In this document: positions 22,682-57,639 of the stretch, piece after piece
Position numbering within the stretch: the stretch's first letter is position 1
Layout of the letters: every line of letters begins with the position of its first letter
Origin: Branchiostoma lanceolatum
Taxonomy: Eukaryota > Chordata > Leptocardii > Amphioxiformes > Branchiostomatidae
Length of the DNA stretch: 64,000 nucleotides
NCBI RefSeq assembly: GCF_035083965.1
Contig: NC_089735.1
Location: 2,606,001-2,670,000, forward strand
Direction of reading: 5' to 3'
The notes under the pieces: generated by a model
What the model was told of the DNA's origin: nothing
The model's database searches: none
Seen by the model: the letters and a program-made list of their open reading frames with translations, nothing else
Program-made: the position numbers and the translations under genes

Positions 22682-22789
22682 TTAGAAAAAGACTGTCTCC
22701 AAGAAGACGTAGAACAGCAAACACAAGATGCCGATGATCAGGAAGTTGATGACCAACAGTTGGACAGTCTGAACCGTTGACGAATCCAT
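22682..22789 (-). CDS. Membrane micropeptide A, 35 aa, phospholamban/sarcolipin-like
   Basis: ATG at 22789, TAA at 22682-22684. The peptide has a short acidic N-terminus (MDSSTVQT), one hydrophobic helix QLLVINFLIIGILCLLFYVF and the tail LETVFF. The core Q.L..NF..I has the spacing of phospholamban residues Gln29, Leu31, Asn34, Phe35 and Ile38, which in that family contact the calcium pump SERCA. A SERCA-regulating peptide in the endoplasmic or sarcoplasmic reticulum is therefore the leading hypothesis. An acceptor-like TTGCAG lies 12 bp before the ATG, so the coding exon probably follows a non-coding exon, as in phospholamban. It is the first of six tandem copies on this strand and one of the most diverged. 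Confidence 0.72.
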   Translation of the reverse strand: MDSSTVQTVQLLVINFLIIGILCLLFYVFLETVFF

Positions 22790-24475
22790 TTTCCCCTCTT
22801 CCTGCAACTGATGACAAGAAACAATCTTCAGAAAACTATTTCACACATTGATACCTACTTGTGGAAACAATTTTAGCCAGGTGCATATCCTATTCTAGCC
22901 CCGGTTAGCCCCTCTGAACGCTTCTCAGCAAAGACTATATAGTCGGCAATGGAAGCGATACACAGTTCTAGGTACCAGATCTTCACAAAAGTTATGTATC
23001 ACCATTGGCATTGTTATAGCGACTTGCCGCATTCGTTGGACAACAGATTACATCAGCCGCAACGGGTGATTAAGACCACACTAGTAAAGCAGAAGACAGC
23101 CTCCTTGACGAGAAAATATTGATGCACTCTATCGTTTTGGATAATTCATAATAATCAAGAAGTAAGAACATACCCAAATCCTAGCCTTGCTCTAGCACCT
23201 CTGTAGACGGGCACCTGTGGAGAGATGCGTACGGGAGGGATGAGAGCTAGTCAAGACACACAGGGTAAAGACATCTAATATAGGTACTTCGTGCTCAATC
23301 AGCAAATCTATCAGTCCAGCACAGCATTGCTTTTCAAATCAGTTTAGCGCCCTCTCTCTTAGGACAATCACAACATTTTCCAACACAGTGTTTACGACAC
23401 CCACTGATTCGTACGCCGTTCATTACAAAAGTGTTCCTGCTTTCTACATCTTTAATTAATTAAAGAAAAAGTGGGATCATTCGTCTTCCACTGTCTCGGA
23501 AAAAGAAGCCGAACCCAATAAGTTAGAACTTAGTGTCAGTAGTTAAGACTAGAGTAGTCATATGTTACATTGTTCATCATTGGGACATTAAGATCAACAG
23601 TAAGCAACGATCTATATAGAATATTCTACTTGTACATAGCTGAAAGAAGAAAGTTCGTGACGGCGAAGAAAGCAACAGGGCGCATTACACGGAAGAAGCA
23701 AAAAAGGTTGGAACGGAAAAGAGCAAATTAAAGTCTTTAACAAATCTGAAACATTCTAAGACTAGAGGACGATGTCGCCAGGCACCAGCTGCATCGCTGC
23801 ATGTTGTGGGTGAGGCGGGGATTTGGCCTGCTGTGAGTACACTTAAATGACACATTTGGTGCCTGGCGCATATGGCACGCGGTGATAGCGTACCCTTATA
23901 TGCACATAGTTTGCAAAAAAGACGTCAGCAGCAAAAGAAGACTGAGTTAGTGACAGACGAGGGCAGCAGCTGTGAATGTGCAGTACCTGGTGGGATGTAA
24001 GTTTTTCTTCAACCACCCCGCCATTGCAACAAGGCTTCCTGGGAATCATCCAATCATTCACCAGCTTCCGACCAGCCATCACGTGGTCCAATACTGTGTT
24101 CTGATTGGTCACTGACGATGTCAAACTAACCCCTCAAATCTCTACCATAAGTATGATTTGATGAGCACATCAATTCACTTGTTTACAAACGGTTAACAGA
24201 AATAGAAAAACAACACACATTCGCTTCTCTGTAGCGGCACAATTCCAACCATAAGATATTAGGGCCTGAAATATGTCTACTCTATTTGTACATTGTAAAT
24301 GTATTAAATGCAATCATCATTCTCTGACAAATTTACAAATATACTATTGACACGTTCAGAAGGCTGCTCTGTATTTACTTAATCTGAATCTTGCCTGTGA
24401 CCCTTTTTACTTGTTTCAATGTTACATCTCATTCTACTGATACAACACTGGGTACTTAGTGTCAACGTCTATCTT
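22790..24475. other. Spacer between micropeptide genes A and B
   Basis: There is no recognisable protein exon. A donor-like CCACCAG|GTACTG on the minus strand at about 23987 is a possible end of a non-coding first exon for gene A. The rest is AT-rich single-copy-looking sequence. Confidence 0.4.
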
Positions 24476-24583
24476 TTAGAAGAAAAACGTTTCGAGGAAT
24501 ACATAAAAGATGACACACAAACATGCGATCACCAAAAAGTTGATGACCAACATCTGGGCGTTTTTGACAGTGTCGGCGTCCAT
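24476..24583 (-). CDS. Membrane micropeptide B, 35 aa, same family
   Basis: ATG at 24583, TAA at 24476-24478. N-terminus MDADTVKNA, then QMLVINFLVIACLCVIFYVF and the tail LETFFF. It is the most divergent member of the six in the membrane segment (Met for Leu, Val for Ile, extra Cys), yet it keeps the Asn-Phe pair, the Glu near the end and the terminal FFF. Third-position differences from the other copies are frequent (for example AACTTTTTG against AACTTCCTG), which argues for selection on the peptide. No clear acceptor is seen close to the ATG. Confidence 0.7.
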   Translation of the reverse strand: MDADTVKNAQMLVINFLVIACLCVIFYVFLETFFF

Positions 24584-25405
24584 CTTGTAGATCTTCCAGG
24601 CAGATTTCCCTTTGATACCCGACAGTTGTCTCTAGAAAACAAAAGGGCACCCGTACGTACGCACTGTCTATTACTCTTGTAAACGTAACGATGGAAATAT
24701 GCCGTCCGGTTATCTTTCGTTTTGTAAGACAGCAAATCTGTCAATGAAACCTTTCGTCCATAAGCAAAAGAAGAAAGTAATTAAGACCCGCATAAGACCA
24801 CGTATCGAATACTGTTTTGAATTAATGACAAATTGCTGTTGACGTATATGTTAGCAATCAACGAAAGTAAAACGTCATATCAAAGCGTATTGAATTAGAC
24901 CTTGACAGGACAACGAATGAAAACAAAACTTACAATGTTGCCCCACACTCTTCACAAAGACGAAGACACCACAAAGACAAGCATTTATTCCATTTTAACT
25001 CTTTGAGCGAAAGAGTAGACTGTACTGCGCGCAGAAGAATGTAGATATACAATGAGAACAGCAGAAACATATCTTAGTACCCACTTTAATCAGATGACTT
25101 ATTTTGCATGGTCGGCAAGGGTAGGGCAACTGTGGTTACTATAAAATGTTTTGGAACTTGTGGTAAAAGAAGAGACAAGGAAACCTGTACATATGAAATG
25201 TGAATATATGATTTTGCTCATGATGTTAACATTGCATGCATTCATACCAATATAAACCGACAGTCATTTGCTTACATATGGCTATCATGGCATACACGTA
25301 TCTTTAGAGAGCAGCATATTTGTTAAGTGATACGGGAAGACAACATACATGCGTACACAGGGTGAACATACTCATTCTAAAAGCGAAGAGAGTGTTCCCG
25401 GAGTG

Positions 25406-25519
25406 TTAGAAGAAGAAGATTTCCAGGAAGATATAGAAGACAGCACCCAAGATCCCGATGATCAGGAAATTGATCACAAGAAGTTGGACTTGCTGGAGTG
25501 TTCCTTTGTCAAGCTCCAT
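25406..25519 (-). CDS. Membrane micropeptide C, 37 aa, same family
   Basis: ATG at 25519, TAA at 25406-25408. N-terminus MELDKGTLQQ, then VQLLVINFLIIGILGAVFYI and the tail FLEIFFF. Two residues are added at the N-terminus relative to A and B, a length shared with D, E and F. It reads Gly-Ala where others have Cys-Phe. An acceptor-like CCACCAG lies just upstream of the ATG (about 25529). A strong donor-like CCAG|GTAAGT near 27236 on the same strand could end its non-coding first exon. Confidence 0.75.
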   Translation of the reverse strand: MELDKGTLQQVQLLVINFLIIGILGAVFYIFLEIFFF

Positions 25520-26285
25520 ATTCTCTACCCTGGTGGTTCTCCGCTCTCACTGTCTGTCAGAAATCTGTCTTTTATTTGAAAGGAGACTCAAACCGAGTGT
25601 TTGTGATGATCTTCCGCAGTGTTCGGATGGTCTTGTTTTCTGGTCAGCGACGAGCACACAACAGACAGCAACCAACGCCTTCTACACACACATGGGCACA
25701 GGGAGACGACACAAACAGGCAGTCGTCAACATGTGAAGCTTAAGTCGCTACCGACATTAGTCACAGTCAAACCTGTACAAGTGACCACTTCTACATAAGG
25801 ACCACCTGGCCATTGATACACAGTCAAACCTGTACTAGTGACCACCTCTACATCAGGGCTTAGAGTATTTTCCCCATCGACCCAACCATCTGTCTACTGT
25901 GGCCATTTTTGTCAAGTCCGTTCAGTGGTCACTATAGACAAGTTGGACTGTTGTGCAGGAATGGGTTAACTGGCGGTTGTTCAGGTGAAGTGGTGGGAAA
26001 GTAAGCGTCGGAGCTAAATGCGGCCAACTAAGACTGCAGCAAAGAAATATAAACAGCAACTGAAGCAGCAAAGACGCCTGTTGGTGTCACGGACAGTCGA
26101 CTGGTCGCTGTGTTTATAGAACAGAAAACGGAGCTGGCAAAATGCGAGCTGTATGCACGTCTGCACACCCCAGGGGATGAAATGGCATTACCAAGAAGCT
26201 GCGGGGGTTCCGAGGAAATGTTCGCCGCCATTCAAAAGGTAAAGAAAAGATGTCAGGGAAGAACGGCAGGACTATAACAAAGCAG

Positions 26286-26646
26286 GATATTTGGAGTTTC
26301 TTCTAACACAACCAGGTAATCTCACCTGCTGACGTTTCGGTGTCTGTCAGACACCTTCTTCAGAGCTTCTGACTGGAGTATTGCTTCTCACCGCTATAAG
26401 TAGCCGATGTAGGTGAACCGAGACGAGGGGTGATACAAGCTCAGCCAGATTTGGGATTGCGTTCTCGCCGCAAAAGCGCCACCTACATCGGCTACTTATA
26501 GCGGTGAGAAGCAGTACTCCAGTCAGAAGCTCTGAAGAAGGTGTCTGACAGACACCGAAACGTCAGCAGGTGAGATTACCTGGTTGTGTTAGAAGAAACT
26601 CCAAATATCCTATGTTCTACCAACCTGATGAAATCATTTTGGGAAA
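26286..26646 (+). mobile_element. Foldback retroelement with 13-bp target duplication and hammerhead-like motifs, copy A
   Basis: It is flanked by identical 13-bp sequences, TATAACAAAGCAG (26273-26285 and 26647-26659). Long inverted arms (GGATATTTGGAGTTTCTTC and its complement) enclose a spacer. The right arm reads on the plus strand CTGAAGA, a 7-bp stem hairpin (GGTGTCT/AGACACC), GAAAC, GTC at 26532-26564. The left arm carries the same on the minus strand at 26331-26363. The right terminus ends ACCAACCTGATGAAATCATTTT. It is interpreted as a Penelope-type or retrozyme copy. Confidence 0.75.
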
Positions 26647-26888
26647 TATAACAAAGCAGTTTTATTATTGGCAGCACGTCCATTCAAGACATGTATGACA
26701 GGATTATTAGACGACTGTAAGGTGTTTTGGGTTAACACGTAATAAATGTAGAATAGATGGATGTGGTACGCACATTATCAAAGAATATAATATTGGAAAT
26801 CCAAACAGTAACAACGAAATAAACAAAAACATGACTGTGATTAGATATGAAAACCAGAGAGACCATCGGTATCAACACTAGAGGAATG

Positions 26889-27175
26889 AGTTACACACAT
26901 GTACGAGTTGCACACATGTACGAGTTACACACATGTACGAGTTACACACATGTACGAGTAACACACATGTACGAGTAACACACATGCACATGTACGAGTT
27001 ACACATGTACGAGTTACACACATGTACGAGTTACACACATGTACGAGTTACACATATGTACGAGTTACACACATGTACGAGTTACTTACATGTACGAGTA
27101 ACACACATGCACATGTACGAGTTACACATGTACGAGTTACGCACATGTACGAGTTACACACATGTACGTACTCAA
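26889..27175 (+). repeat. 17-bp minisatellite (ACACACATGTACGAGTT)
   Basis: About 17 copies of a unit ACACACATGTACGAGTT, with shortened variants such as ACACATGCACATGTACGAGT. The unit contains the palindrome CATGTACATG-like CATGTACG. The open frames on the plus strand are repeat by-products. Confidence 0.85.
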
Positions 27176-27726
27176 CATACAGACATACACATACATTGAC
27201 TATTTCATGTAAAGTGTGGTGTCCCACAGACTTACCTGGAATCGTTCTGATGTTTTCGGTTGGTCAGTCTCTTGAAAGCTGGCTCGCTTCTGTAAGGAAG
27301 AGCATGGGGTGTTTGTAACGAAACGATGGAATCTGCTAGTCTTCAAACTCCGGTCCACCATGAAATAAACGTTTTACAACAACTTGATGGTTTGTCATGG
27401 GGGTTAAATGCTTCTATACTTACGTATATTGCAATATCACATGACGATGCGATTCACCTAGTAAAGTTATCTATCAAAATGGATGTTGCTAAGACTTATG
27501 TGTCCATCGCTTAAGTGTCTTGTCAAATATTCTATTTTCTACAATGTGCAATTGGCGGGAGAATATACGTAGTGTAAAATTTGAGTCCACCGCCACTTTG
27601 TCCATTTATTTTGTATATTTGATGTCTCTTTGAATAAACAACAACAAAATAACTACAGCTACATGTACTGCATTAACGCTATATCGCCACTGGGCATCAT
27701 CTCCCACTCTGCATCTCAACATGCTT

Positions 27727-27727
27727 A

Positions 27728-27779
<52 letters not shown>

Positions 27780-27872
27780 GTTGGTTGGTTGGTTGGTTGG
27801 TTGGTTGGTCGGTCGGTTGGTCGATCGATCGATCGATTGATTGCTTGTTTGTTTGCTTGCTTGCTTGCTTGA
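27727..27872 (+). repeat. Tetranucleotide tract (GATT, GGTT, GGTC, GATC, GCTT)
   Basis: A run of GATT changes stepwise into GGTT, GGTC, GATC and GCTT blocks. It is a compound microsatellite with a single-step change between neighbouring motifs. Confidence 0.9.
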
Positions 27873-28364
27873 ATTTCTTGACAGTTGGATGTCCCATTCA
27901 ATTCTGGCAAAGTAATTTTCAATGGGGCACAGACTACGAAAACAGTAAAATTATCAGATTGACAAAGAAAATAAATTTGTGACAAAATTGTAACACAAGT
28001 AACAGAGGATTGTTGAGACATAAGAAACAGAATCGGCCTTTTCATAGTAACAATCATACAGATTGAGCCACAGGTTGTTATTGTAGATGACGTAAATTAT
28101 GTGGCATCCATCCATGTATAAAGATATCAATTTCCTCAGACATTTGAGCTGCAATCCTCTCATTCATTCTCTTTTCATTTCATTTATTTACCCTGGGTCA
28201 AAATAATCCTTTTCTTACTCTGCTTTGCATCACCTTCCCGCCCTACGACTAGCTTACGGTCCGTGCAGGTCTAACTAGATTGCCACAAACAGCAAATGTC
28301 AACAACATCTAAAGGAGGCCATGGATACATGCCCTACACCTGCCGTCAGTTACATGTAAGTTAG

Positions 28365-28446
28365 CCTGGGGTCCAGTTTTGTTTGCTTTGGCCCGCTCCG
28401 CTCCGCTATCCGCCAACTAACAGCGAACAAGGCTGGACCCCAGGCT
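28365..28446. repeat. Short palindrome (AGCCTGGGGTCCAG...CTGGACCCCAGGCT)
   Basis: Inverted ends TAGCCTGGGGTCCAG and CTGGACCCCAGGCTA are separated by about 50 bp containing GCCCGCTCCGCTCCGCTATC. It is a possible minimal MITE and no duplication is defined. Confidence 0.55.
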
Positions 28447-29230
28447 ACAGCTAAGTGCCTGTTATCTTCCCGGATTGCATACGTTGTGTATTTGTAATTT
28501 GCACTTGCAATTTTTTAAGCCGACGAACTGAAAAATATTCATGTGAGACTGGGAAGGTAGGATCAAACCTTCCTGCGTCGATGACATTGCAATCCCGATA
28601 TGCTACTGTTACAATACGAGTTATTTCTTCATAGTTATATCTGTTATTCATATATGCAGCTTTCAAGTGCTATGCAGCCTTACCCACTTTGCGTGACTAT
28701 ATCTAGATGGACATGGAATGCTAAAATATAGTAGCACGAAATGGAAACATCATTATGCGATAAAGCAGATAACGACACACAAAAACAGACGGACGCCAAC
28801 GGACAGAAAAGCTTTAATCACAAACAACTTTGATGACACTCTAAACAACACATAGGACGTTCAGTGCCCTTAAAGTAACATTGTAGTGTTGGTGGTCTGG
28901 TGCAAGCCCGCATCTTTATACAGCAAGCAATGTTTGTTTATCTTTACCAATAAGTTTAACTACAGCATGCTCTACGAAAGCCACTTCTAGCTACGGGCAT
29001 CGGAATGCCTTGAAATAAGGTACAAAGTCACTTCATAGATAAACCGCTGTGCTCAGAACGACTTAAGTGTGTCTTCTCATGTCTCAGGCTTTCATGGCAT
29101 TGTGCTAACATTTCACTAGCCACCCACATTCCATAGCAGAACGTTTTCTTTTTTAAAGTATCACATGTTGGAGTAGAAGTGTAGACGTAAGCAGTTTCTA
29201 AGACATGGTTCTTTAACAACCTCACAGATA

Positions 29231-29344
29231 CTAGAAGAAAAACGTTTCCAAGAAAATCCAAAACACAAAACCCAAGATGGCGATGATCAGGAAGTTGATC
29301 ACCAGCAGTTGGACCTGTTGGACGGTCTGCTTGTCCATATCCAT
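29231..29344 (-). CDS. Membrane micropeptide D, 37 aa, same family
   Basis: ATG at 29344, TAG at 29231-29233. N-terminus MDMDKQTVQQ, then VQLLVINFLIIAILGFVFWI and the tail FLETFFF. It is unusual in having Trp in place of the Tyr in the FY pair and in lacking Cys. A second in-frame ATG lies two codons in, so initiation could be at either. An acceptor-like AAATCAG lies about 15 bp before the ATG. The neighbours are copies C (3.7 kb downstream in its direction) and E (2.1 kb upstream). Confidence 0.75.
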   Translation of the reverse strand: MDMDKQTVQQVQLLVINFLIIAILGFVFWIFLETFFF

Positions 29345-31406
29345 GGCTTCTCCTCCCAGCTGATTTTGGGGACTCTTAAGGTCTTAAGTCACTTTTCTTA
29401 AGTTGATGCCTTCGGGCAAGAAGTTTTACCGCCGCTCCAAGCAAGAACGTCTCTCACCAGAGCTCTTGAATGGCGCTTGCTGTCGACTAGTCTACTTCAT
29501 ATCATCACACACAAAGATAGGGACATAACATGTTCACAACAGTTTACGAAAATCTTGACTTGAATTGGGATGTATATACAGTCCATTGTTTTTTTGTTAT
29601 TCGAAAAATAGACATGATTCAATTAGGTGTCAAGAAGCCTCTTTGCTGTCTCAATTCAAGACACCAAACATACAAAACATCAACAAACTGAACAGGTCTG
29701 TCGGTGCTTCAGTCAAGTCGTTGCAGCGGCGTCGGTACAGCGGTGAACGTTGTTGCAGTCTGAGCTAACGTTATAGGCCATGGCTGGTTCACACGCCTCG
29801 AAAGGGTTATTTGTAAAGAAAAGCATGATCTGTAAAATGGCGAAGTTGAAGCTGCGGCCAAACCTGCCCAATGGTAAGATAGCCCATAGCAAAATAGAAA
29901 TGCTGGCGCCATTATGTTGTATGGCAGCGTGACTACTAAGCCACATGAGTGCTGGAGAAGTCAGTACAGTTTACTCTAATCCAAAACGACCCTGGCCAAG
30001 AAGAATACATTAAGGAACAATGACGCATTTGCAAAATTGAATCTACAAGTTTTGTTAAAGGGAATTTCACTCATAATGATACTGTTTACCAAACAGTTCA
30101 TTTAGTACGCCAGCAAAGTCCGAATATATATCTAGTAGGTAGTTTTTCCGGCAAGTATGTCGTTACTAGTGACTTGTTGCCTCACACATCGCAATTATCA
30201 GGACTTTTTCATGATATAACAATTCTAGATAAATGATAATAGATATATGTGTTTTTTTATCAATTATTCAGAAGGTCGTCTAGTGTTTCTATAGCAGTAC
30301 TGAAAATGCTTTTTAGTTTTCTTTTGACATATATCCAAATCTATTGACCTGATGATCTTTCCTGTTTCCCGTATTCATTCCACCATATATTAAGCAATAG
30401 AAGAGCCTCTTGGAAAATGAGTGCGCATGTTTGATTATACCTCTTGGCTTGACGTGATCGTCGTGTCTGTTCATATGTACCAGCTGATATAATGAGCATC
30501 AACACGTAGCACATTAACCTGGAATCCAGGCAGCTGCCTCAGACCCCCTGAAGACCCGTTAGCAACTTTTAAATGTTGATTAAATTCAGGCTGGTAAAAA
30601 CATCGGGGTGGGCCGAATTGGCCAGTCGGGGATAGACGCTTACAGGGCCGAAGAATCCCAGCCTGACGCCCCGGGAGGACGACGGGTGAACAGGTTAGCA
30701 GAACATGGATTAAGCGATCAGGCAACCGTAAGGAAACAGACGGAAACCAACGAACAAACAAGCTTTTATTGCAACCCTGATGGAAATGTGTCAAAGAATA
30801 CCGGCCACTTCAGCACAATTGTTGACAGAAATTGCTTGCGAATCAGTTATTGCGTGCATCTCAGATTTGGAAGTAAACTATGACTTACTTTCTGGTCGTG
30901 TAAGGACCATATCATTATATCAGTCTCATTACTAGTATAGACCTTACAATCTGATGGTGAATACTGCATGCTATAGTTGGAGGTCACATTTTTGTAGCGA
31001 GCACGATTTCTGTCTTTATTCTGAACACAGCATTTTCTGCGGAAACTACTCCTACAGGCATATCCACGGGAATGCCTGGAACATAGAGCCAATTCATCAC
31101 ACTAGGGTAGTCTTTTTTATTCATTTATTTGATGAGACAAAGGCGCTTTAAAAACTAAAAAAAAACTGAAAGTCATTCTACTATGATCACAGCAGGCACT
31201 ACATTGCATTGAGCTCGTCTAAGGCATTGCAGTACTGAAGATGAACCGAACTGAACTGGACGGCACTATGGCTGCAACACGTATTCTCGTGTATTACATG
31301 CTTCAACGTATCGTTTCTTTTCAGCTATCACATGTATCACACACGACATATAAGCAGTGCAAGTTCTATGCGTCTAAGGCATGTCGCTTCAGTAGGACGA
31401 CGGATG
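29345..31406. other. Spacer between micropeptide genes D and E
   Basis: No protein exon was recognised. A donor-like AAGAG|GTATAA on the minus strand near 30440 could end a non-coding exon for gene D, but support is weak. Sequence composition is unremarkable. Confidence 0.35.
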
Positions 31407-31520
31407 CTAAAAGAAGAAGGTCTCCAAGAAAACGTAGAACACAAAACACAAGATGGCGATGATCAAGAAGTTGATGACCAGCAGTTGGACCTGTTGGAGG
31501 GTCTCTTTATCCAGCTCCAT
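31407..31520 (-). CDS. Membrane micropeptide E, 37 aa, same family
   Basis: ATG at 31520, TAG at 31407-31409. N-terminus MELDKETLQQ, then VQLLVINFLIIAILCFVFYV and the tail FLETFFF. This copy is the best consensus of the family: nearly every position is the majority residue. An acceptor-like AAGCAG lies just upstream. A donor-like CAAG|GTAGGT at about 34159, after sequence with no long frame, is a candidate for the end of a non-coding first exon. Confidence 0.77.
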   Translation of the reverse strand: MELDKETLQQVQLLVINFLIIAILCFVFYVFLETFFF

Positions 31521-32169
31521 GGTTATAGACACTGCTTAATGTTCTTGTTAGCTATTCTTGCTGCCTTCGGATCTGAAGGTCTTGTGTCCTGTACGACGAT
31601 TGCTCTCTATCAGCTTGCTTGATATCATCACACACAAAGACGATAACATGACATGTGGGGAAGAGGTTGAAATCATATAAGTCCGGTTGGAAATGGGAAG
31701 TAAAGAGTGACTTTTCAAATTCAACAATTGATTTTTTCACATGTAAAGACAGACCGGTACGTTCTTAGATGTCCCACATAAAGCCACTGTACACAACAGA
31801 AGTCATTGGAGAGTCGGGTCTGCAGTCGGACCGTTGCTGTGACGTCAGCTATGATGATGCAGTTCCAGAGCGGGAAGCTGTCTCGGATAGCGAGTTGGTA
31901 AGCCATGGCTGACTAGAAGCTTGAGAAACCCCGGTTCTCAGGAAATATATAATTTTTGAAAGCGCGAAAACCATAAGGCTGTGTGTAGATGAAGCCTGCG
32001 GCTATACGTGTGTAAGTTAAAGGTAGAGCGAGACTCGTAAAAGCGCGAACATGTTGAGCTGAGGCAGATGACGTCAAAATGGCCCATGGTGAAACAGCGA
32101 CTACAAAGCGTCATGAGGCTGCGTGCCTGTCAGCACAGACAATGTGCAAAGCATGACGAGGCCTGAAAG

Positions 32170-32500
32170 TGCTAAGTACATGTAGCTACCAACTGCAAAT
32201 ATGCGGATATCATAATATCATGATTAGCTATCAGCTGCAAAGATGTGAATACTATGATACGGTGGTATCATAGGTAGGTATCGTGCGCGGGTCAACTGTA
32301 AAATATGTGAATATCATGATATCATAATTAGCTGTCATCTGCAAATTTGATATTATGATATGATTAGCTGGCAAACTGGAAAAATATGTGAATATTATGA
32401 CACTATGATTAACTGTCAACCGCAAAGACCTGAATATCATGATACCATAATCAGATATCAACTGCAAATATGTTAATATCAAACGGAAATTTAGCAGAAA
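32170..32500. repeat. Degenerate tandem repeat (ATATCATGATATCATAATTAGCTGTCA)
   Basis: About nine imperfect copies of a 35-50 bp unit built from TGTGAATATCATGATA and TTAGCTGTCAACTGCAAA. The copies differ by substitutions and small indels. Confidence 0.65.
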
Positions 32501-34941
32501 AAAGTTTAAAAGTGATAGAAATGTATAAATCGTGAGGGTCGACAACATAAAAAAACATTGCATTTATGTTTTCCGGCAATTTCACACAGATTTCACATTT
32601 ATGCGTCTGGTTGTTATTTGATCGTGTTATCTAAGTCTTATTTAGAATTAAAGATGTAAACTTGTTTCTTTAAAAAAATGTCATTTATCGTCATGTTGAT
32701 ACTAGCAACGAAAAATAAAATTCATTTATAATTTACAAAAGTCTACGATGTTGATTCACCTGCGATTTTCCCATGACAAGACTATCATAAGCTTTATACA
32801 GTACGTTCTTCTAAATCGTAGCTATTGAGACTTCTATATGACGCAGCTATACTAGACTAGGGCAAACAAGGATCTACCGGTCTCTTCTTTTATCACTTAA
32901 TCGGTTATTCAGTGATTCCATATTCTTACACCCGATAGAGACACCTCTAATCGCCAAAATACCAATTATATGATTAATTAGCCTTAAAGGTATCCAGAGC
33001 ATTTTATGTGGCTTGAAAATTGGAAATATTCTAGTTGCTGTAATCTTTATGAAATTGTCATTTAATGCCACTGTTTACCACATTTGCGTGATGATTACAT
33101 GTCACAAGCGCTCAAAAGCCACGCGAAAATAAGCTACACAATGACCCCTTTAGTTTCACGCGCCTAGTGTAATTAGATTGAAACAGAACTCAAAACGGTT
33201 TTTTCGTCGGTAATGGACCGTTCCCGTCGAACACCATATAGAACCCCCTGTTCTATTTGGAACACCTCCGTCAAAAACAGCGCTAGTGGGACAGAAATGA
33301 CAAGCAGAAATGACAATGCATATCTGGGACAGATATCTCACTGCATTGGCTACATGAATACCCAAGAAAAAAACGAAATGAAAAAGACAATATCTCGGGT
33401 ACTCAAGGGGACGGAGCTTACGTAACACATTGCCAACTACTACCAAGTCCGTCTCTCATGTACTTGTGCGTTATTCCTGTGTTGGACTGGAACGGTCAGT
33501 TCTCTGCAAGTTCCGGCGACGGGACGTCACGTTCCAAGAAGTCGGAAAATTTGAGAACAAAAACGGCGGCGCTGACAGCGCTTGGATTTTTTTTGAGTGC
33601 CCAACACACAGCGACATCGCATCTTTGCTCCTTGAATATCGATATGTAATGGTATAGTGTTATTGAAACTTACTATGTGTAGAAATGGCTAAAAACTGGA
33701 GTTTTTTAATTTGAGTTTGAAGCCACATAAAGTGCTCTGGGTGCCTTTAACTAGCGATAAAGCATGGTTAACTACTCAATATATGTTATTAGCTAAAAAA
33801 AAGATATTAATTAAATAGCAGTAATGGCTCATTGGAATTTTGAAAGAATTGAGGCAAAGCCCGATGTTATTATGCCATACAGATGTGAACAGCATATGAT
33901 CGTTGCCGTCAAGTCGAAGGCATTGTTGTACAGTGAAACATAACCATCGTGTGCTGAAAACGTCTCAAGTATTGCGTCAGAACAAGTCAATAGCAATACA
34001 ATCTACCAACCCGTGTGGCATAGGTTTCTACGTCCACATACGAAGGTAGTCATATATAAGGTAAATGTAAAAGAATTGCAACTGTGAAGAGTGGAACATA
34101 GGACGTGACGTTTCATATAATAATTGATTGCACGTACGTAGATCGGGTCTTCACCTACCTTGAGTCAGGAACAGGGCCTCTATGTCGTCACTTCCGGTCG
34201 TCAGTAGCTACAGCCCAGGTCCTGTGCGGCACAAACATCGTATAGAACATCCCCGCACCATATTTGGAATATACATATTCTGTTGATCTAAATTGATACT
34301 TTTTTGTTGTAAAACTCTTTAATGAGATACTGATCTTCAGCAGGCTATTAGAACGTTGCCATGACAACTATCATCACAAATATTGATGGCTATACTTATT
34401 TAAAGGTCTAGAATCGCCGCCGTGATTCATTCTCATCTTGTGGCCATGTGGTAAAGAGTTTTCTTAGACAAATGAATTTAGTTTATCGTAGGTTAGTGGA
34501 TTCCATGCAAGTTGATAACAAATCTGTTCTAAACAGCCGTGGACTACTGGTATGACAGCTGCCTATGTCGATTCCTCACGTGTCCATGTGTAATATGTAT
34601 GTACTGGTTTACACACATGATACTGAAGGGTAGATGTGAACTAGGACCGTCGTCAGTGCCGACCGACAGAGGCCATCGACGTTTACTCAGTAAATAGTGA
34701 GACAATGATAAGATAAAATGATAGTAATATTCATAATCCTTTTATTCTTCCTTAGAGTCTATGCTTACGAAAGCTATGCAATCAACCCAGAAAGATACGG
34801 ACAGCCCCCAAACCATATGTTTCCATCATTTGTCTAATGATACCATCTGTAGCAAATCATTAGATACATTTGTGGCCTTCACTCTTCAATCATTGCCAGC
34901 TACTGTGACGCTTTATTGGAAGAACCGCGTCCATATTAGTG

Positions 34942-35412
34942 CTGCGTACCGGTACTGAGTACCGGTACTGTACCGTAAAAATTGATTAGGTACAGGTCCA
35001 AAATACCGGATCATGAAGTACCGGTACTGTACCGATATAAATCTACACCAAGTATGTGCATATTTTGTGACTGATCTCCTGACCTCATGGCCTTATTCAA
35101 CACCAAACGTGACCAAAGTGACACCTTGGAACAGCGTAACTAATATGCAATAGAGCATTCAGGCAGGCCGGGAGTTTTGATAGCAAGGCCAAGGGAGTTT
35201 GGCGGTAGGACACCTAGTTATGTTCTTTGAAAAAATATACTGACAAGTTGAAAATAGTTTATTTATGTTTCTGTCATTATTGAAGAGGTTCAGAAGAACA
35301 CATTTCAATTTTTCAAATTTTTCAGGTACAGGTACAGGTCCGGACCTGTACCTAAACCTCTGTACCGGTACCTGTACCTGATGTTACGTTAAGATACGCA
35401 TGCGCAGTACTA
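34942..35412. mobile_element. Interspersed repeat, copy 2 of 2 (GTACCGG-rich ends)
   Basis: Collinear with 7490-7940 and in the same orientation. It begins AGTGCTGCGTACCGGTACTG and ends GTACCGGTACCTGTACCTGA followed by GATACGCATGCGCAGTAC. The interior is well conserved between copies, which suggests recent activity. Confidence 0.65.
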
Positions 35413-35493
35413 GTCCATATCCACACAGGTGAGCCTAATTGCTATCTACATATAGCCTCGTTACAGCAGTGGCCTTAACGGCATACTCGTCTT

Positions 35494-35607
35494 CTAGAAG
35501 AAGAATGTCTCGAAGAAAACATAGCACACTAAACACAAGACTGCGATGATCAGAAAGTTCATCACCAGAAGCTGGATCTGCCGGATGGTCTCTGGCTCCA
35601 TCTCCAT
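35494..35607 (-). CDS. Membrane micropeptide F, 37 aa, same family
   Basis: ATG at 35607 (a second in-frame ATG two codons later), TAG at 35494-35496. N-terminus MEMEPETIRQ, then IQLLVMNFLIIAVLCLVCYV and the tail FFETFFF. It is the outermost copy and carries a Met before the conserved Asn-Phe and an extra Cys. An acceptor-like CAAATAG precedes the ATG by about 12 bp. Two possible exons upstream (37140-37197 and 37643-37711) could belong to its 5' leader. Confidence 0.74.
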   Translation of the reverse strand: MEMEPETIRQIQLLVMNFLIIAVLCLVCYVFFETFFF

Positions 35608-37139: not shown

Positions 37140-37711
37140 CTTTGACACACCGGAGACGTTGGTGTGAGTTCCCCTGGTACAGCTCAGATCCCAGACGCTG
37201 GAGTTCGGGGAAAAAAGATGTGGAAATTTCCGAAAATAAGTTCATCAGGTTGGTAGAACATAGGATATTTGGAGTTTCTTTTAACACAACCAGGTAATCT
37301 CACCTGCTGACGTTTCGGTGTCTGTCAGACACCTTCTTCAGAGCTTCTGACTGGAGTACTGCTTCTCAACGCTATAAGTAGCTTATGTAGGTGGCACTTT
37401 TGCGGCGAGAACGTAATCCCAAACGTGGCTGAGCTTGTATCCCTCCTCGTCTCGGTTCATTACCTGGTGAGATTACCTGGTTGTGTTAAAAGAAACTCCA
37501 AATATCCAAGATGTGGAAATGTAACACTATCGTGTAGGACGATCATAACAATCGTATGTCATACTGGAGACTTTATAGTAAATGTAAATAAAGAGAACAA
37601 TTCGATAAACCTGATCTGACCTGATGTCCGGGTAAAACATACCTGCAGTCTAGTTGTGGATACACAGTCACAGTGTCCAACCCACGATGGTCCTCTGTCA
37701 CTAAGGTCTAT
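37140..37711 (-). other. Two possible exons (37643-37711 and 37140-37197)
   Basis: On the minus strand, GTTTTCAG|ATAGACC...CTGCAG|GTATGT bounds 69 bp, and CTCCAG|CGTCTGG...TCAAAG|GTACGAG bounds 58 bp. Both have good splice signals. Joined, one frame stays open: it reads LSDRGPSWVGHCDCVSTTRL in the first exon and continues LGSELYQGNSHQRLRCVK in the second. I recognise no family. They lie 1.5-2.1 kb upstream of the micropeptide F start on the same strand, so they may be its 5' leader. The foldback copy B sits in the intron between them. Confidence 0.35.
37228..37507 (-). mobile_element. Foldback retroelement with 13-bp target duplication, copy B
   Basis: It is flanked by AAGATGTGGAAAT at 37215-37227 and 37508-37520, an exact 13-bp duplication. 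Its orientation is opposite to copy A, with the terminus TTCATCAGGTTGGTAGAACA on the left. It has one full arm with the hammerhead-like core on the minus strand (37309-37341), while the other arm is shortened by an internal deletion. Confidence 0.75.
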
Positions 37712-38700: not shown

Positions 38701-39195
38701 GTTTGTTGTGCTCGATACCAGAGCTGATTCGAAGGGGAGCATATATATATGTCTCAATGCCAAATATGAATGATTGTCACATTGACATCAAACGACTATT
38801 CATTGATAAGTAGGATGCTTTCCGTAGACATGAAAAGTAGCTACTTTTGGTGAAATCTTCCCCACTGACGGAGACCAGAGATGACATATAATCCGGAAAT
38901 AAAAGTTTCTGTGCATTTTAAATGGTGGATGAAGTGGACATTCTCACCAGGCAGTTTCGTATCAAACCCCAAGCTTTTATCTTCACTTAGAGAGCCTACA
39001 GTGCCACCTCCTAACGGCCGTGTTTACCATGTAGGGGCGCCGTGTCGTCTGCAGTATCAGTCCGGCCTTCTGGTGTCAGCCGGGAGACTCTTATGGTACC
39101 GAATATGGCAGATATGTCTGCTCCTGTTTTAGTTTGAACGGCAGTGACCCTGTTTCTCTGCAAGCTCGGCTGTGAGGCAGACTGGAAGTCAGACT

Positions 39196-39375
39196 AGGAT
39201 ATAAGAGATTCTTTGTACACAACCAGGTATTGATTGATCTCACCTGCTAACGTTTCGATGTCTGTCAGACACCTTCTTCAGAGCTTCTGACTGGAGTACT
39301 GCTTCTCAGTACTCAATGGTTGTGTACAAAGAACCTCCTATATCCTATATTCTACCAACCTGATGAAATTATTTT
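39196..39375 (+). mobile_element. Foldback retroelement with 13-bp target duplication, copy C (short)
   Basis: It is flanked by TGGAAGTCAGACT at 39183-39195 and 39376-39388, again exactly 13 bp. The hammerhead-like core on the minus strand (about 39249-39281) has CGAAACGTT instead of CGAAACGTC and one stem pair changed to a wobble. It ends with the shared terminus CTACCAACCTGATGAAAT. Confidence 0.72.
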
Positions 39376-43885: not shown

Positions 43886-45311
43886 TTAAAGGCGTTAACA
43901 TCGTACAGGAGCTACGTACTATACATGTTTTTTACAGAGTCTTATATTAGTAATAGCTTTCGGCTTGTTTGGTAGCCCTGGATCGTTTGTTTTCATACTG
44001 CCTAGTAAGTCAGATCAAATCAACTTGGCCAATTTCTACTATTTTCCCAGCCATCCGCGGGGCCTGGTAGAGGCTATAGCTGGAAAGAGTAGAAGTCAGT
44101 CAAACAGAGGAGTGGCAAACTGTACTTATCGGCTGACCAACTCCTCTATTTGGCTGATTTCTAATCTTTCTAGCCACGTCTGGAGCCTGCTAGAGGCTAG
44201 CGTAAAAGCACTTCATGTGCATTTAGATATTTGCGCCTTATCTCCTCAGCTCAAAAGTGACGCCATGCGGAATATTGGCGAACTACACTGAATGCATCAT
44301 ACGAAATATTCGGCACCGCATGTAAATTCATTTGGGATGTTAAAAGTAGAAGCAGTCGGGCAAAAGGATGAGATTGCCAGAAACATCGTGGCTTTCTTAA
44401 AAATCAAAACAAAACAGAGGTGTTTGGGATGATGAGGAATGATTTTCACGTTTCATTGCGTTCAGGACTGCCAGTTGAACTGCAACTGTTTGGAGCCATT
44501 GAATTGTTTGTGTATGTGCGGTCTAGATATTGGCATCATTGAATGAATGGGTGGGGATTGTTGTTTCTCCCTTTAGTTTCCCTAGTATATCTTAGTTTTT
44601 GGCGACGCCTCAGGGGCGAGCCAAATGATATAGTATTGTGTGCAGTTTGCAACTATTCTAGGAATTGTACAGGCATGTGTCCATAGGCATATTAAGACAA
44701 TAAGAATGTTAGGAATGTTAGTCAGACAGAGAGCTTCCCTCGGGACATTCCTCCTAGATAATCTAGACAGGAAGCTACATCTGTCTACCAGATGTGCCAG
44801 GCTTATGTATACATGACCCATTTAAGACCTCGGCTCTACAGTAATATTGTTCTTTTCTGTTACAATGTTTTAGACGCCCTAATGCTGGTCCTTACAATTG
44901 TAAGACTTAATGTCTTTCTTCGGGGAACAGGTCATAACTGCATCAACTATGTACTGATAACGATTGTGTACACTCTGCTTCAGTTACTTATACAAGCAGA
45001 TTAATTAAAGGGCATTAACCTCATTCATGACATTGGGAACATGTCCCTGCCAGATCGATCAATGAAAAATTTCACTGTCGTAAGGAAATTCAGCAAGCCA
45101 GTAGTACTAGTACTTGATGATTATCCTGCTGATAGGATGCCACTTTCTTGCTGATATAATCCTGTACACTTCCAAGAACACATGGGACACATTTTTACAC
45201 AACAACATTTCTGTGGATTAAGATTGCTAGGCTGGCATTTCATTAGGGCTCCAGGAATTACTGGCAAATTCCTTTATGACTGGTGTGCCTGGTATTCCAG
45301 TGGGACTCGAA

Positions 45312-45683
45312 TTCCATCCTGGCATTCCATCCTGGCATTCAATCCTGGCATTCCATCCTGGCATTCCATCCTGGCATTCCATCCTGGCATTCCATCCTGG
45401 CATTCCATCCTGGCATTCCATCCTGGCATTCCATCCTGGGATTCCATCCTGGCATTCCATCCTGGCATTCCATCCTGGCATTCCATCTTGGGATTCCATC
45501 CTGGCATTCCATCCTGGCATTCCATCCTGGCATTCCATCCTGGCATTCCATCCTGGCATTCAATCCTGGCATTCCATCCTGGCATTCCATCCTGGCATTC
45601 CATCCTGGCATTCCATCCTGGGATTCCATCCTGGCATTCCATCCTGGCATTCCATCCTGGCATTCCATCTTGGCATTCTATCC
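45312..45683 (+). repeat. 13-bp minisatellite (ATTCCATCCTGGC)
   Basis: About 28 copies of ATTCCATCCTGGC with few variants (CTGGG, ATTCAATCC, CATCTTGG). Because 13 is not divisible by 3 and the unit has no stop, five or more overlapping open frames appear on both strands; none is treated as a gene. Confidence 0.95.
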
Positions 45684-45990
45684 TTAGCTAACATCCCTGG
45701 CCATTCACGCTCTAGAGGACTTAGTTCTATAGTTCAGGGAACATAAGTGTACAAGCTGTTGCATGGTGTATGCTGTGTCTGTTGGTAAGTGGACTATGAT
45801 GTTAAAATTTGAGTAGATTTGGCCTAACATGTTGTTCATGTAAACAGCAGTCCTATCAGAGTAGAATAGTCATTTTGTATGGTGGGAACCCGGTCCGTGG
45901 GCTGTTTTCAGTTGTCATCGATCAGGCGGTGATGAAATCGATGTTCGTTCTGGCAGTGGGGTATGTCTGGTAGAATCTAGTGGAACTGTC

Positions 45991-47852: not shown

Positions 47853-48092
47853 TCAAATGTCCGATTCCGGGCGCTCGGCGATGTAAGCGGCGACTCCCTT
47901 GTTCTCCTTGACGCTTTCCACCACCTTGGCCAGCTTGGGGTATTTCTCCAGTGCGCCTGCGCTGTGCTTCAGTACGTCGTGCATCCCCACGAAGAAGGCC
48001 AGGTCAGCGTAGGTCAACTGTAGGGAGAAACGTGTTTTTAGTAGACAGTACAGACCATGGTGTTCATCTTTTTACGGCATGTGTGTGTGTGC

Positions 48093-48170
<78 letters not shown>

Positions 48171-51100
48171 ACGTTTCCATGTGTTTTCGGATATTTAATT
48201 TGTGGTCAGTATAACTTAAGAATGGCCGAATGAATTGTGATGATATTTTGTACGTGGGTAGGTCTTGACAAGGAGGTTATAAAAAGATTTCACAAACTTG
48301 AGCCTTTCTTTGTGAGGTACGTACAGGCGTGCATGTGTATTACCTGTGCGAACGAGAATCATGGGGGAACTGTACAAGCATGTGCATTGCAAAAGCGCAA
48401 CAGACCTATTATAATAATTACTCACACTGGATCCAACCAGATGTCCCTCAGAACCGCTGAGTTTCTCGTAGTTGCCGAGGAATTTGGTGACGTAAGGACC
48501 GAGAGCCTTCGTTCTCTCCTCCTGAGGGACGTAAGAAGATGTAAGACGTTTACATGATAAGGAGGGTTATCATATAGAAGTAGGCTCAAGGAAAGTAGAC
48601 CTTCAATGGTCTTCAGGTATAGCCTAGGGTCCTACCTTGTGAGCTTTGGTCCACCGCTGGCAGCTACTGGTTTGTACTGAAGAGTACACGCTGTATATCC
48701 TAACAGATTTATTCGATCCACTCACACCCCTACTCATTTCGATAAGTGCGGCGGGTTCTTTTACGTGCTCGAGGTGTGGCTCTCCTCAAGCATGGGGCCT
48801 CCATTTAGCATCCTATCCGACGGACGTCCCTAACCGAAGCTAGGCACTCATTTTCACCCGAGTGAGGTTAGGGAATTCGTGTCTTTTTAAGGGCACAACG
48901 TCAACGGGATATATGTCAGGGTATTTGAACCCAGGACCTACACCCTGCCATTACGCCACTTACACCCCTATTCCACTGGGACGGCTCTCTCGCCGCGCGC
49001 TCTCTGCGACCTAAAATCTAACAGAACGCTCAACGGATAAAAAACGAATCTTTTACGCTTTTTGTGTGTTTTTCTGTCTTTTCATCCATGCTTTAACATT
49101 TGCTTTGAATTCGCATTGAATTCATTTGAACAAGCGGAGATAAAGGTGAATAGCTTTGAGCGTTTATCCTCATATCTTGAACAATTCATGATTAAGTACG
49201 CATGTCTTCCGTACCTTCGTGGCCTCGTCCGGCGCGAAGAACGCGTCGCAGAACTCGGTGATGAGGTCGTCCACTCCGCACACGAACATGTCGACCTGCG
49301 CCTCCTCCCAGCTGGACTTCCCACCCAGACCTGTGGACACGGTAAGAACAGAGAGCTGCAGTACGGTAGGAGATCGCTAAGTATTCTGGCGCTGCAAAGC
49401 GGTGAGGGTAAAGTTCATTGCCCTTCACGCTTACCTGTTTTGTCGCCACCCTCATTAATCATTAACGCTGCAGATAATGATATTCTGCTTGTGGTCTTTG
49501 GTTTGATACAATGATAGATTAAGATCCTATTAAAGAGGGATGGAGTAGTCCTACTGTGTATCTTTTTCAGGCTCCACCTTTTTTGTATGTTCGATACATA
49601 TATATATACATGTACATGTATGTCTATATCTATGTTTGCACTAGCTAATTCAAGTCTTCAACAGAGCTGACAGCATGGTCTAAATGATCGACACATGAAA
49701 TTTCAAAAATATTCGGCTGTGGTCGGGTGGTCTGGAATGGGTTTGCTGGTGGTTGGGAATAAATCCGTAGTAGTCAGAGTGTGTTTGGGAGTCTAATTTG
49801 ACTAAAGCTGGTCAGACTGCTCCAGAGTGTTGGCTAGTGGTCGGGAGCCACGTTCGGCTGTGTGTAACCGGGATTTTAGGCACTACTGGTGGACTGAGGT
49901 TCTGAAGGAACTGTTACCTGTTTCCCTGGCCAGGTACCGAGCTATAGCCCCGCTCTGACACACCACCTGTCCGTCAACCTCCAGGAGCGGCATCTGCCCC
50001 ATCGGTGTGTCTGGTGAAAAAAAGGAAATAAAATCCGACCAACGTAAATATTAACGGTGTGGTCTCGAATAAAGTTCTACACGGGAACTATGCGGCTACA
50101 GCGTCTTTTCTGCAGACATGGCGTGAGTGTGTACGGTTGGCCCGAGGTTGTCCACTACTATTTGCCTAAATATTGACGGAGTTGTTGTGATGAAGCCGTA
50201 AAAGTGTGAGTGTTAATTGGTAAATGAACTTTCCATCTTTAGCACACAGCTTTAAGAGGCGCAGTTGATCACAGTCGAATAATTTTACGTTTGTTTTATA
50301 CTCGTGCGTTCCCAACGAAGAAGGCCAGGTCATCGCGGGTCAGCTGTAGGGAAGAAAAAGAATCTTACAACTGAGACAGGGCAGTACAGGTGTTCATGTG
50401 CCGCAAGTACTGGCCATTGAATATGTGTCAATCCCAGGCACAGTGGTTTAGGTCCAGGTCCGGGCTTGTACCTGTACCGAATAAATCCGTGACCAAACAT
50501 CTGGATATCTGTAAGTCACACATGTAGCCAATTGTGTAGTTAATGCATGCTGTATAAGGCAATGGCTGCCTAGTCCGAAGTCAATGTTAAGTCGGTAATG
50601 CACATTTGGTTTAGTCCGAAACATATCATTTACATAACCAGAACAGTTGCCTCGGAGGTTGAGTAGTCTTCCTTTTAAGTTGAATTGTGTGCACATCAAT
50701 ATCCGTATGGTACATTGAACTTTAGACTGTAACTTTGAACTTCAGACTGCTATATGGGTTCACTGCGTGACACTCTATCGACGACGCCCCTTTAGCTGAG
50801 GGGGGGGGGCTGTTTTATAACCTGTTTACCTTTGTAGAAAATTAATACAGTTGATATCTTAAGAGACTTTTCGACCTGCGACCAGCAGCCTCACCCCACC
50901 TCCATCCATACCTCATCTCTTGCCTATCTGTCTAGCTCCCTTCTATTGTTTAAAGCTAGAAAGAAAACAGGTTTTCAGATAAAAGGCACAATCTATGCTC
51001 CTAGGTTTTCAAATAAAATACACAATCAAAGTTCCCCAAAACATAGCTTAAAACTAAATTAGAAGACACAATCTATGCGCCTAGTTTTTTTTAGATAAAA

Positions 51101-51601: not shown

Positions 51602-52151
51602 TACGGTATAGGTCGGGACAGAACACGGTGGAAACAAGACGCTAACTTGACTCGTCCTTCGTCGATTCACCAAAGGAGGTTTTTGTCCTCGTATGATTCT
51701 CTTATAGGTCGACGACAGGATGACGTGACGAATGGATCGTTCCATTTACTTCTAAGGGGGCGCCGTTGATAAGATATCAGCCCGTCGAGCAGTCATAAAT
51801 GATACATGTGAATTAAAACCATATGTATATTTCTCTGCACAAAGATATCGTTTAGACAACTTTACAACAGTGATTTGCATGTTCTGTGTTAAATTCAACC
51901 TCGCCGTTGTTTATTTTTGTACCTCTTGTCTGGACTCCATCTAATGGTCCGTGTACACCTCTTAATAAATCATCCATTTCTGAACCAGAAGAATAACAAC
52001 CAATGATTCTGTACAGGAGCTGTTAATGTTTGATAACGCTGTGCTATGTCTGTAAGTAAGGAAAGGGCCGCAGACCAAAGTCTACTAGACCACATTGCCC
52101 ACACAGAGAGACACCTGATTAACCGGTCAGCAGACTGTTTATTCACTGTTA

Positions 52152-52630: not shown

Positions 52631-53216
52631 TTAATTGGTGCTTCATGGTAGCATCATACTGAACATGACCACTTCCCTTTATAACGTTTCATTTTATAAT
52701 CAATTTTGTCCTGTTTCATTTATGTCAGAGCTCCATTTCAAGAAGAAGAAGAACTTTATTGCGCGATGATAGTAACTGTTACAATGTATGGCAACTTACG
52801 CACATGGTAGTTAACAAATAGAAAGAACTACTCTAGAGCTGTCCATTGAATGATACACATATGTTATTTTATGTTTTTGTAAACGTGATTGACTAATTAG
52901 ACTTTGTGTTGATAATCATTAACACATATATTTAATATTGTAACAGATAATGAAAATATGGACACTGTCTGAGATGCGGCACCACCATGTATGTTGTACA
53001 ACAACAAGCAAGAAATGTTAAGTTTTGAAAGTTCTAATAAACTGTCCAAAAAAACTACACAAAGCGAAGCTTCTAGCCACCACTTATCCACGTAGACGAA
53101 ATATCAGATTATCCGTGTTGTGTGTAGCAATACACATTTTTTAAAGATGATCAGTAACATGTTCTCATCTGCTTAAGACGAAACTCAGCACCATAAGATC
53201 TTAAGAGTTTCTTGCT

Positions 53217-57600: not shown

Positions 57601-57639
57601 TTGTTGGTGAAAATGAGTACCAAGCTACAGTGGGGGGGT

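Follow-up and report, generated by a model that had tools for sequence, protein, structure and literature searches.

A tandem family of six selected micropeptide genes in a lancelet, probably encoding regulators of the calcium pump SERCA

Known regulators and the lancelet locus

Regulation of the calcium pump SERCA by small membrane peptides has been described as conserved from insects to humans (PMC8396278; PMC4807881). Phospholamban (PLN) and sarcolipin (SLN) are reported to bind the SERCA groove of helices M2, M6 and M9, where Thr805 on M6 is touched by PLN Asn34, the counterpart of SLN Asn11; PLN no longer inhibits once this Asn is replaced by alanine, and the luminal tail of SLN may serve to place the helix, its Tyr29 lying against Phe88 of M2 (PMC8396278). 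The luminal tails of the fly sarcolambans, YLIYAVL and YAFYEAAF, are described as being cut by neprilysin 4, which reportedly frees the peptides from the membrane (PMC9338278). The present analysis concerns a 64,000-nt stretch of Branchiostoma lanceolatum DNA (NCBI RefSeq assembly GCF_035083965.1, contig NC_089735.1, positions 2,606,001 to 2,670,000; hereafter the window). It carries a tandem array of six open reading frames (ORFs) on its minus strand, each for a peptide of 35-37 residues. These ORFs are a real, selected family of small peptides, and their sequences suggest that they probably encode tail-anchored SERCA regulators lacking the phosphorylation segment of PLN. Within literature coverage that lay mostly outside subscription journals, no title or abstract opening among the matches listed dealt with such peptides in lancelets; a junctophilin review, in the part covered, mentions lancelet and SERCA-type terms separately (PMC8934682).

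Six short reading frames under selection

The original prediction, drawn from the letters of the window, placed six minus-strand frames of 35-37 codons here. This was borne out exactly in position and in length (35, 35, 37, 37, 37 and 37 codons). The frames are listed below as ORFs 1 to 6, and each copy is also named by its lower coordinate; Hypp7819 is an annotated B. lanceolatum protein discussed further on.

22682-22789, minus strand: ORF 1, 35 amino acids, MDSSTVQTVQLLVINFLIIGILCLLFYVFLETVFF; the whole ORF recurs, apart from a single V-to-I change, as the C-terminal part of Hypp7819
24476-24583, minus strand: ORF 2, 35 amino acids, MDADTVKNAQMLVINFLVIACLCVIFYVFLETFFF; residues 1-17 are in Hypp7819, which then exits the ORF within the helix
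25406-25519, minus strand: ORF 3, 37 amino acids, MELDKGTLQQVQLLVINFLIIGILGAVFYIFLEIFFF; falls in an intron of Hypp7819 as that model was mapped
29231-29344, minus strand: ORF 4, 37 amino acids, MDMDKQTVQQVQLLVINFLIIAILGFVFWIFLETFFF; ORF read and profile match
31407-31520, minus strand: ORF 5, 37 amino acids, MELDKETLQQVQLLVINFLIIAILCFVFYVFLETFFF; ORF read and profile match; AlphaFold2 helix 5-36
35494-35607, minus strand: ORF 6, 37 amino acids, MEMEPETIRQIQLLVMNFLIIAVLCLVCYVFFETFFF; ORF read and profile match

Neighbouring ORFs lie 0.8 to 4.0 kb apart. All six keep their own ATG and stop, with no stop or frameshift inside any of them; every start carries a purine at -3 together with G at +4, and the frame is closed by a stop 15-54 nt before each ATG. 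Searched with a profile of the six copies, the 2695 stop-to-stop ORFs of 15 or more amino acids in the window yielded the six at E values of 3.1e-25 to 1.9e-23 and no seventh copy, the next two matches (E 0.041 and 0.048) being without the motif. The consensus reads MEMDKxTVQQVQLLVINFLIIAILCxVFYVFLETFFF, and 13 of its 37 columns are invariant (T7, Q12, L14, V15, N17, F18, L19, I21, L24, F31, E33, F36 and F37).

The peptides are hydrophobic from residue 13 onward, except at N17, E33 and residue 34. Membrane insertion is predicted, and a short peptide with one putative transmembrane (TM) helix near its C-terminus is the layout of the SERCA-regulating micropeptides known as regulins; the family is very probably tail-anchored. 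The single helix (residues 5-36) predicted by AlphaFold2 for copy 31407, with a mean predicted local distance difference test score (pLDDT) of 93.8, is as expected and does not discriminate between readings. The paralogues differ at residues 25 (C/G), 26 (F/A/L/V) and 29 (Y/W) and in the head: Gly25 occurs in copies 29231 and 25406 and Cys25 in the other four, and copy 29231 also has Trp29 for Tyr. The differences at residues 25 and 29 may reflect functional divergence.

Conservation among the copies ends at the edges of the ORFs. Mean ungapped identity over the 15 copy pairs, in 30-nt windows, was 0.61-0.79 within the ORF (last 105 nt), and fell to chance in the 120 nt upstream (0.26-0.28) and the 120 nt downstream (0.21-0.29). 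In a self-BLASTN comparison of 18001-40000, alignments between copies extended at most 7 bases beyond the ORF and several stopped inside it; that of 31407-31520 with 35494-35607 spans both ORFs edge to edge. The claim that the flanking DNA is not alike therefore holds on both sides, with the qualification that a weak upstream block is common to copies 29231 and 31407. A single coding exon per copy, as had also been proposed, would fit these edges.

Evidence for selection on the peptide, predicted from an excess of silent differences, came from the substitutions themselves. Summed over the 15 pairs, third codon positions account for 245 differences, first positions for 135 and second positions for 66, and pooled pN/pS among copies is 0.30 (pS 0.40-0.91). 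Codon maximum likelihood under model M0 with F3x4 frequencies, run for at most 40 optimiser iterations on 5 of the 105 topologies picked by a quick screen, gave omega of 0.027-0.033 and rejected omega = 1 on all five fitted trees (2dlnL 74.8-83.7). Because synonymous sites are near saturation, the exact omega is untrustworthy, though neutrality is still rejected; for the same reason the duplications appear to be old.

Profile similarity to phospholamban and sarcolamban

The original prediction had also proposed that the peptides carry the L..NF..I spacing with which PLN and SLN contact SERCA. This spacing is present in all six copies: L14, N17, F18 and I21 stand in the exact register of PLN L31, N34, F35 and I38, which are invariant in 14 aligned vertebrate PLNs (of 39 found). 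A search of the protein database with human PLN returned those 39 proteins; 38 carry a name, in no case that of an invertebrate. All copies thus carry the polar groove-contact residue (Asn) flanked by Leu, Phe and Ile that marks a regulin, in a register given by both hhalign and ungapped scoring. The best ungapped register places N17 on PLN N34, SLN N11 and T10 of sarcolamban A (SclA) and sarcolamban B (SclB), while against the other regulins N17 faces a non-polar residue (Leu29 of myoregulin (MLN), Ile20 of DWORF and Leu50 of another-regulin (ALN)). A published alignment gives MLN Lys27, DWORF Pro15 and ALN Asp47 at that position (PMC8396278). The RRAST phosphorylation segment characteristic of PLN is absent, as the lancelet peptides start only where PLN residue 18 aligns; R13, R14, A15 and S16 are invariant in the 14 aligned PLNs.

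In a scan of 24736 Pfam families, for which both 35-residue copies were entered without their first Met and the HMMER filters drop most weak matches at E up to 10, Phospholamban (PF04272) was matched by 5 of the 6 copies (13.0-16.3 bits, E 0.0067-0.075) and was the top family for four. When the last 26 residues were shuffled, none of the 48 resulting versions matched it at E up to 0.1. SLN, an accepted relative, scores 16.2 bits on the PF04272 model, also below its cut-off of 25 bits; on this measure, SLN and the best lancelet copies are equally close to PLN.

Profile-profile comparison gave the clearest signal. The lancelet six matched the 14 vertebrate PLNs with a probability of 95.6% and a score of 38.2, a score reached by none of 400 shuffles of the TM columns only (mean 21.4, standard deviation (sd) 3.6, maximum 33.1) and by none of 400 with columns 18-52 shuffled (mean 11.1, sd 2.9, maximum 23.2). 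They also matched Drosophila SclA plus SclB (84.8%, score 24.7), again with none of 400 shuffles as high (mean 9.8, sd 2.2, maximum 17.0). Compared directly, PLN and sarcolamban reach 11.1% (3 of 400 shuffles as high), SLN and sarcolamban 9.9% (6 of 400), and PLN and SLN 90.3% (0 of 400). The lancelet family is accordingly placed, as judged by its profile, between insect sarcolambans and vertebrate PLN. Comparisons with single references are listed below; hhalign against the 48 shuffled versions was uninformative because those shuffles retain the real head.

SclB: 9-11/29 identities per copy; hhalign 84.4%; ungapped z 6.2 (0 of 5000 shuffles as high); HMMER without filters 13.7 bits (reached by 0 of 500 shuffles)
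Human PLN: 6-10/29; hhalign 89.9%; z 1.7 (307 of 5000); 7.7 bits, 2.6-12.7 over the 14 PLNs (7 of 500)
SLN: 4-6/31; z 3.6 (11 of 5000); 4.1 bits (26 of 500)
SclA: 6-8/28; hhalign 13.9% (2 of 60 full shuffles as high); z 1.8 (234 of 5000); 1.0 bits (129 of 500)
MLN, DWORF and ALN: hhalign 0.3-1.5% (1, 22 and 5 of 60 full shuffles); z 1.7, 2.0 and 1.0 (316, 191 and 800 of 5000); -1.9, -3.4 and -4.5 bits
Photosystem II PsbT fragment: hhalign 63.4%; 12.5 bits (1 of 500)

Seen against this list, the proposal of a PLN/SLN-like family stands in that the profile ranks PLN first, beyond what composition explains, and needs amending in that the nearest single sequence in ungapped scoring is the insect SclB. 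A further likeness to SclB lies in the luminal tail. Compared with the SclB octapeptide (taken from PMC9338278), the lancelet tails have a mean of 3.8 identities in 8, a value reached by 56 of 20000 shuffles, and the Y.F.E..F pattern of SclB is present with Tyr in 5 of 6 copies and Trp in one. The lancelet Glu 16 residues past Asn17 is Glu in SclB and Arg in SLN.

Several observations weigh against assignment to the SERCA regulators. No copy reaches the Pfam cut-off of 25 bits for PF04272, copy 25406 has no Pfam match at all at E up to 10, and within the same limit neither Sarcolamban (PF21898) nor Sarcolipin (PF05366) is matched by any copy. PLN taken alone is not significant in the ungapped test, and the profile match of the lancelet family to SLN is weak (14.5%; 8 of 400 TM shuffles, 0 of 60 full shuffles as high). 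Given that PLN and SLN match each other at 90.3%, the bridge therefore runs from PLN through the lancelet family to sarcolamban. Identities among the references are PLN-SLN 8/29, PLN-SclA 8/28, PLN-SclB 5/28, SLN-SclA 7/28 and SLN-SclB 5/29; since PLN and SclA are as identical to each other as the lancelet peptides are to PLN, this bridge rests on the profile comparison. An annotated model, Hypp7819, joins two of the six copies. Finally, HMMER search of PDB chains with the six-copy profile listed only PsbT (3 rows, E 0.083-0.57) and recovered neither PLN nor SLN at E up to 10; a PDB search with SclB found no match. Without filters, the unrelated PsbT fragment scores near SclB and above human PLN.

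PsbT was rejected as a relative and its match judged convergent. Its hhalign probability is below those of PLN and SclB. It is not weighed equally with them because it is the best of 177635 PDB sequences, whereas PLN and sarcolamban were named beforehand. It nevertheless demonstrates that similarity between helices is, taken alone, weak evidence. For this reason, and because the bridge rests on profiles, regulation of SERCA by the six peptides is held here to be likely, and is not put more strongly.

Proposed mechanism

We infer that each ORF would be translated into a tail-anchored micropeptide of the sarco/endoplasmic reticulum. The acidic head (residues 1-11) would be cytosolic, the helix (about residues 12-32) would span the membrane, and the tail of Glu plus aromatic residues (33-37) would be luminal. 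The peptide would occupy the SERCA groove of M2, M6 and M9, with Asn17 taking the place of PLN Asn34 or SLN Asn11 against the M6 threonine and Leu14, Phe18 and Ile21 packed around it, while the luminal tail would set the depth of the helix. The expected effect is a lowered apparent calcium affinity of SERCA.

Since the RRAST segment is missing, such peptides would act as constitutive inhibitors, tuned by which copy is expressed, in what amount and with what turnover, and not by PKA phosphorylation. Turnover by neprilysin is conceivable because the lancelet tail YVFLETFFF resembles the fly sarcolamban tails, and offers a testable idea. That all six copies are under purifying selection suggests variants specific to a cell type or stage, a set that would have been assembled independently of the vertebrate one.

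Alternative explanations

One alternative is that the ORFs are selected micropeptides of another kind, single-helix subunits of another complex (the respiratory chain, another P-type ATPase or a channel) that have come to resemble PLN by convergence. Single TM helices do match one another by composition; PsbT was the only hit of the PDB profile search, and the score of the PsbT fragment is reached by just one of 500 of its shuffles. There are also weak Pfam matches to CoxIIa and to DUF4519, the latter being the top family for copy 31407. (DUF4519 was considered as a possible another-regulin and rejected; Pfam gives ALN as PF17696.) Against convergence, the PLN family was matched by most copies among all the families scanned and by no shuffle, the match covers the head and has the functional Asn in register, and two families of SERCA regulators, PLN and sarcolamban, match in the same register. 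We regard membership of another complex as unlikely, while giving it real weight.

A second possibility overlaps with SERCA inhibition: the peptides might be activators or competitors in the manner of DWORF, or a mixture of inhibitors and non-inhibitory competitors. DWORF is described as an activator (PMC8396278), and copies that differ at C/G25, F/A/L/V26, Y/W29 and in the head could differ in function. However, DWORF has Pro in place of the Asn (PMC8396278), whereas Asn17 is retained in each of the six lancelet copies and their helix is free of Pro, and DWORF does not match the lancelet profile (22 of 60 shuffles as high). A DWORF-like role, for all or some of the copies, thus seems improbable.

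The copies might also be exons of one longer spliced protein, as modelled in Hypp7819. This protein of 140 amino acids maps to 22682-27361 on the minus strand and is made up, in order, of about 27361-27236; the 48 nt before copy 24476 together with its first 17 residues; 23246-23196; a short unplaced stretch; and copy 22682 with the 18 nt before it. It thus holds ORF 1 whole and 17 residues of ORF 2, with in-frame upstream extensions and plausible acceptors. Set against this, mean identity over the 15 pairs is at chance level immediately outside the ORF, both ahead of the ATG and beyond the stop, and each ORF has its own ATG and stop with an in-frame stop 15-54 nt upstream. Moreover, Hypp7819 exits ORF 2 in the helix, skips ORF 3, and starts with 42 residues from 27.2-27.4 kb that match none of the micropeptide copies. 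A longer protein is very hard to reconcile with these observations. Because copy 24476 is abandoned in mid-helix and copy 25406 is stepped over, Hypp7819 is probably a chimeric prediction, joining two micropeptide copies to unrelated pieces. Its single residue change in copy 22682 relative to the window could, like other differences between the window and B. lanceolatum proteins, be explained by the high heterozygosity reported for amphioxus (PMC9673378). The published annotation of B. lanceolatum is described as using Augustus with RNA-seq hints, with chimeras sought and corrected (PMC9673378); it is a conjecture that Hypp7819 originated there, and that its existence means part of the array has exon hints.

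The original prediction had the genes hidden from annotation by their size. This is true in part: copy 22682 is present whole in Hypp7819 and copy 24476 by its 17 residues, while the other four had no match in length-limited searches. The queries in these protein searches were confined to copies 31407, 22682 and 24476, each within a limited range of protein lengths. A 42-residue query with copy 31407 found no protein of about 23-73 amino acids sharing three 5-residue words, NCBI and UniRef animal proteins included. The joined query of copies 22682 and 24476, against proteins of about 103-327 amino acids, had Hypp7819 among the best 120 of 172; the remaining 52 may include weaker matches to the peptides.

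Last, although the region holds several tandem and dispersed repeats, we give practically no credence to the idea that the ORFs are functionless, either recent repeats or pieces of mobile elements, given that similarity ends at the ORF edges, omega is about 0.03 with synonymous sites close to saturated, six of six frames are intact, and no relative was confirmed among 154 pattern matches in prokaryote contigs or 246 in viral contigs.

Sequence upstream of the ORFs and neighbouring features

Three features were located upstream of individual copies.

29464-29533, minus strand: block 120-189 nt upstream of ORF 4, with 73% identity over 70 bases to 31587-31656
31587-31656, minus strand: partner block, 67-136 nt upstream of ORF 5, shared with 29464-29533
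24632-24654, minus strand: splice-acceptor-like site (acgggtgcccttttgttttctag); the next base lies 48 nt before the ORF 2 ATG and starts the RQLSG... piece of Hypp7819

The two blocks include a 19-base exact run, TCTTTGTGTGTGATGATAT, and may represent a promoter or 5' untranslated region element. A splice acceptor common to the copies was sought and rejected: a YAG after a pyrimidine tract occurs within 400 nt upstream of three of the six, and none was found for 29231, 31407 or 35494. By simple pattern search, no muscle promoter motif (MEF2, CArG) lies within 1.5 kb upstream of any copy; TATA-like sites occur upstream of two of six, and E-box-like sites upstream of all six, which is uninformative.

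Repeats are found in and around the array. A dispersed repeat, with copies 85-96% identical, lies at 26284-26415 inside the array and at 37262-37393 and 39195-39308 beyond its end. Minisatellites are present at 26888-27168, 45311-45684 and 59395-59940 (units of 17/123 bp, 13 bp and 21 bp). A 36-bp minisatellite at 3727-6788 (85 copies, 97% matches) opens long frames that are repeat artefacts, of 1076 and 1025 amino acids on the minus strand and 150-155 on the plus strand. No RNA families or tRNAs were found in the window.

On the minus strand of 47862-63969, sigma-class glutathione S-transferase (HPGDS-like) genes form a tandem cluster, which, judged by repeated exon types, probably has four or more members. 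First exons are at 51601, 56285 and 61365, and last-exon matches end at 47862, 53220, 57992 and 63292, with a partial one at 62173. The exons at 53-56 kb are 97-98% identical to B. lanceolatum HPGDS in three exons; two further alignments to HPGDS (79% and 69%) run past the exon ends. Together with the Hypp7819 match, these exons place the window in B. lanceolatum or very near to it.

Wider implications

If the six peptides are indeed SERCA regulators, an invertebrate chordate would own an expanded set of them. Direct similarity between the insect and vertebrate regulators is slight, at only about 11% profile probability between the 14 PLNs and the two sarcolambans. A cephalochordate family matching both groups would be an intermediate and could help to locate where the phosphorylation domain arose. 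A bolder proposal, which we advance tentatively and do not favour over its negation, is that the lancelet form, with its Asn contact, acidic-aromatic tail and no phosphorylation domain, is ancestral to sarcolambans and PLN/SLN, the six-gene cluster having arisen by an independent radiation in chordates, in which the choice of paralogue tunes SERCA. Lancelets would then rely on that choice where vertebrates use dispersed genes and phosphorylation, and the long-argued homology of the insect and vertebrate families would become traceable by sequence. Six copies in an animal without the vertebrate genome duplications would also be a test of why several regulators are kept. A practical lesson is that annotation misses or chops functional small genes.

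Comparison with known SERCA regulators

Myoregulin, DWORF and another-regulin are, like the lancelet peptides, single-helix regulators of similar or somewhat greater size, and are set apart by their hhalign probabilities of 0.3-1.5%. Sarcolipin (PF05366) is closer in layout, having Asn11-Phe12 in register, 20 residues from the Asn to the C-terminus and an aromatic luminal tail. However, the RSYQY tail that, with a PF05366 match, defines sarcolipin is absent from the lancelet copies, which have E(T/I)(F/V)FF instead, with an acid in place of Arg.

Sarcolambans A and B of Drosophila are tail-anchored peptides of 28-29 amino acids. SclB shares with the lancelet family the Glu 16 residues past the Asn/Thr position and the Y.F.E..F luminal tail; SclA is without the tail motif and, taken alone, is not clearly above shuffles in any of the three tests. 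Unlike the lancelet peptides, sarcolambans have Thr and not Asn at the key position and no acidic-Gln head, and the lancelet core, L-V-(I/M)-N-F, differs from the L-F-T-T-F core that goes with a PF21898 match. Drosophila carries two sarcolamban ORFs, close together, as against the six in this array.

Phospholamban (PF04272) aligns over its residues 18-48 with lancelet residues 1-31, sharing not only the L/N/F/I register but also, at PLN positions 19 and 29, an acidic residue and a Gln, respectively. PLN is encoded by a single coding exon, as each lancelet copy would be. PLN residues 1-17, with the RRAS16T17 phosphorylation segment, are missing from the lancelet peptides, which add, relative to PLN, a luminal tail with an invariant Glu.

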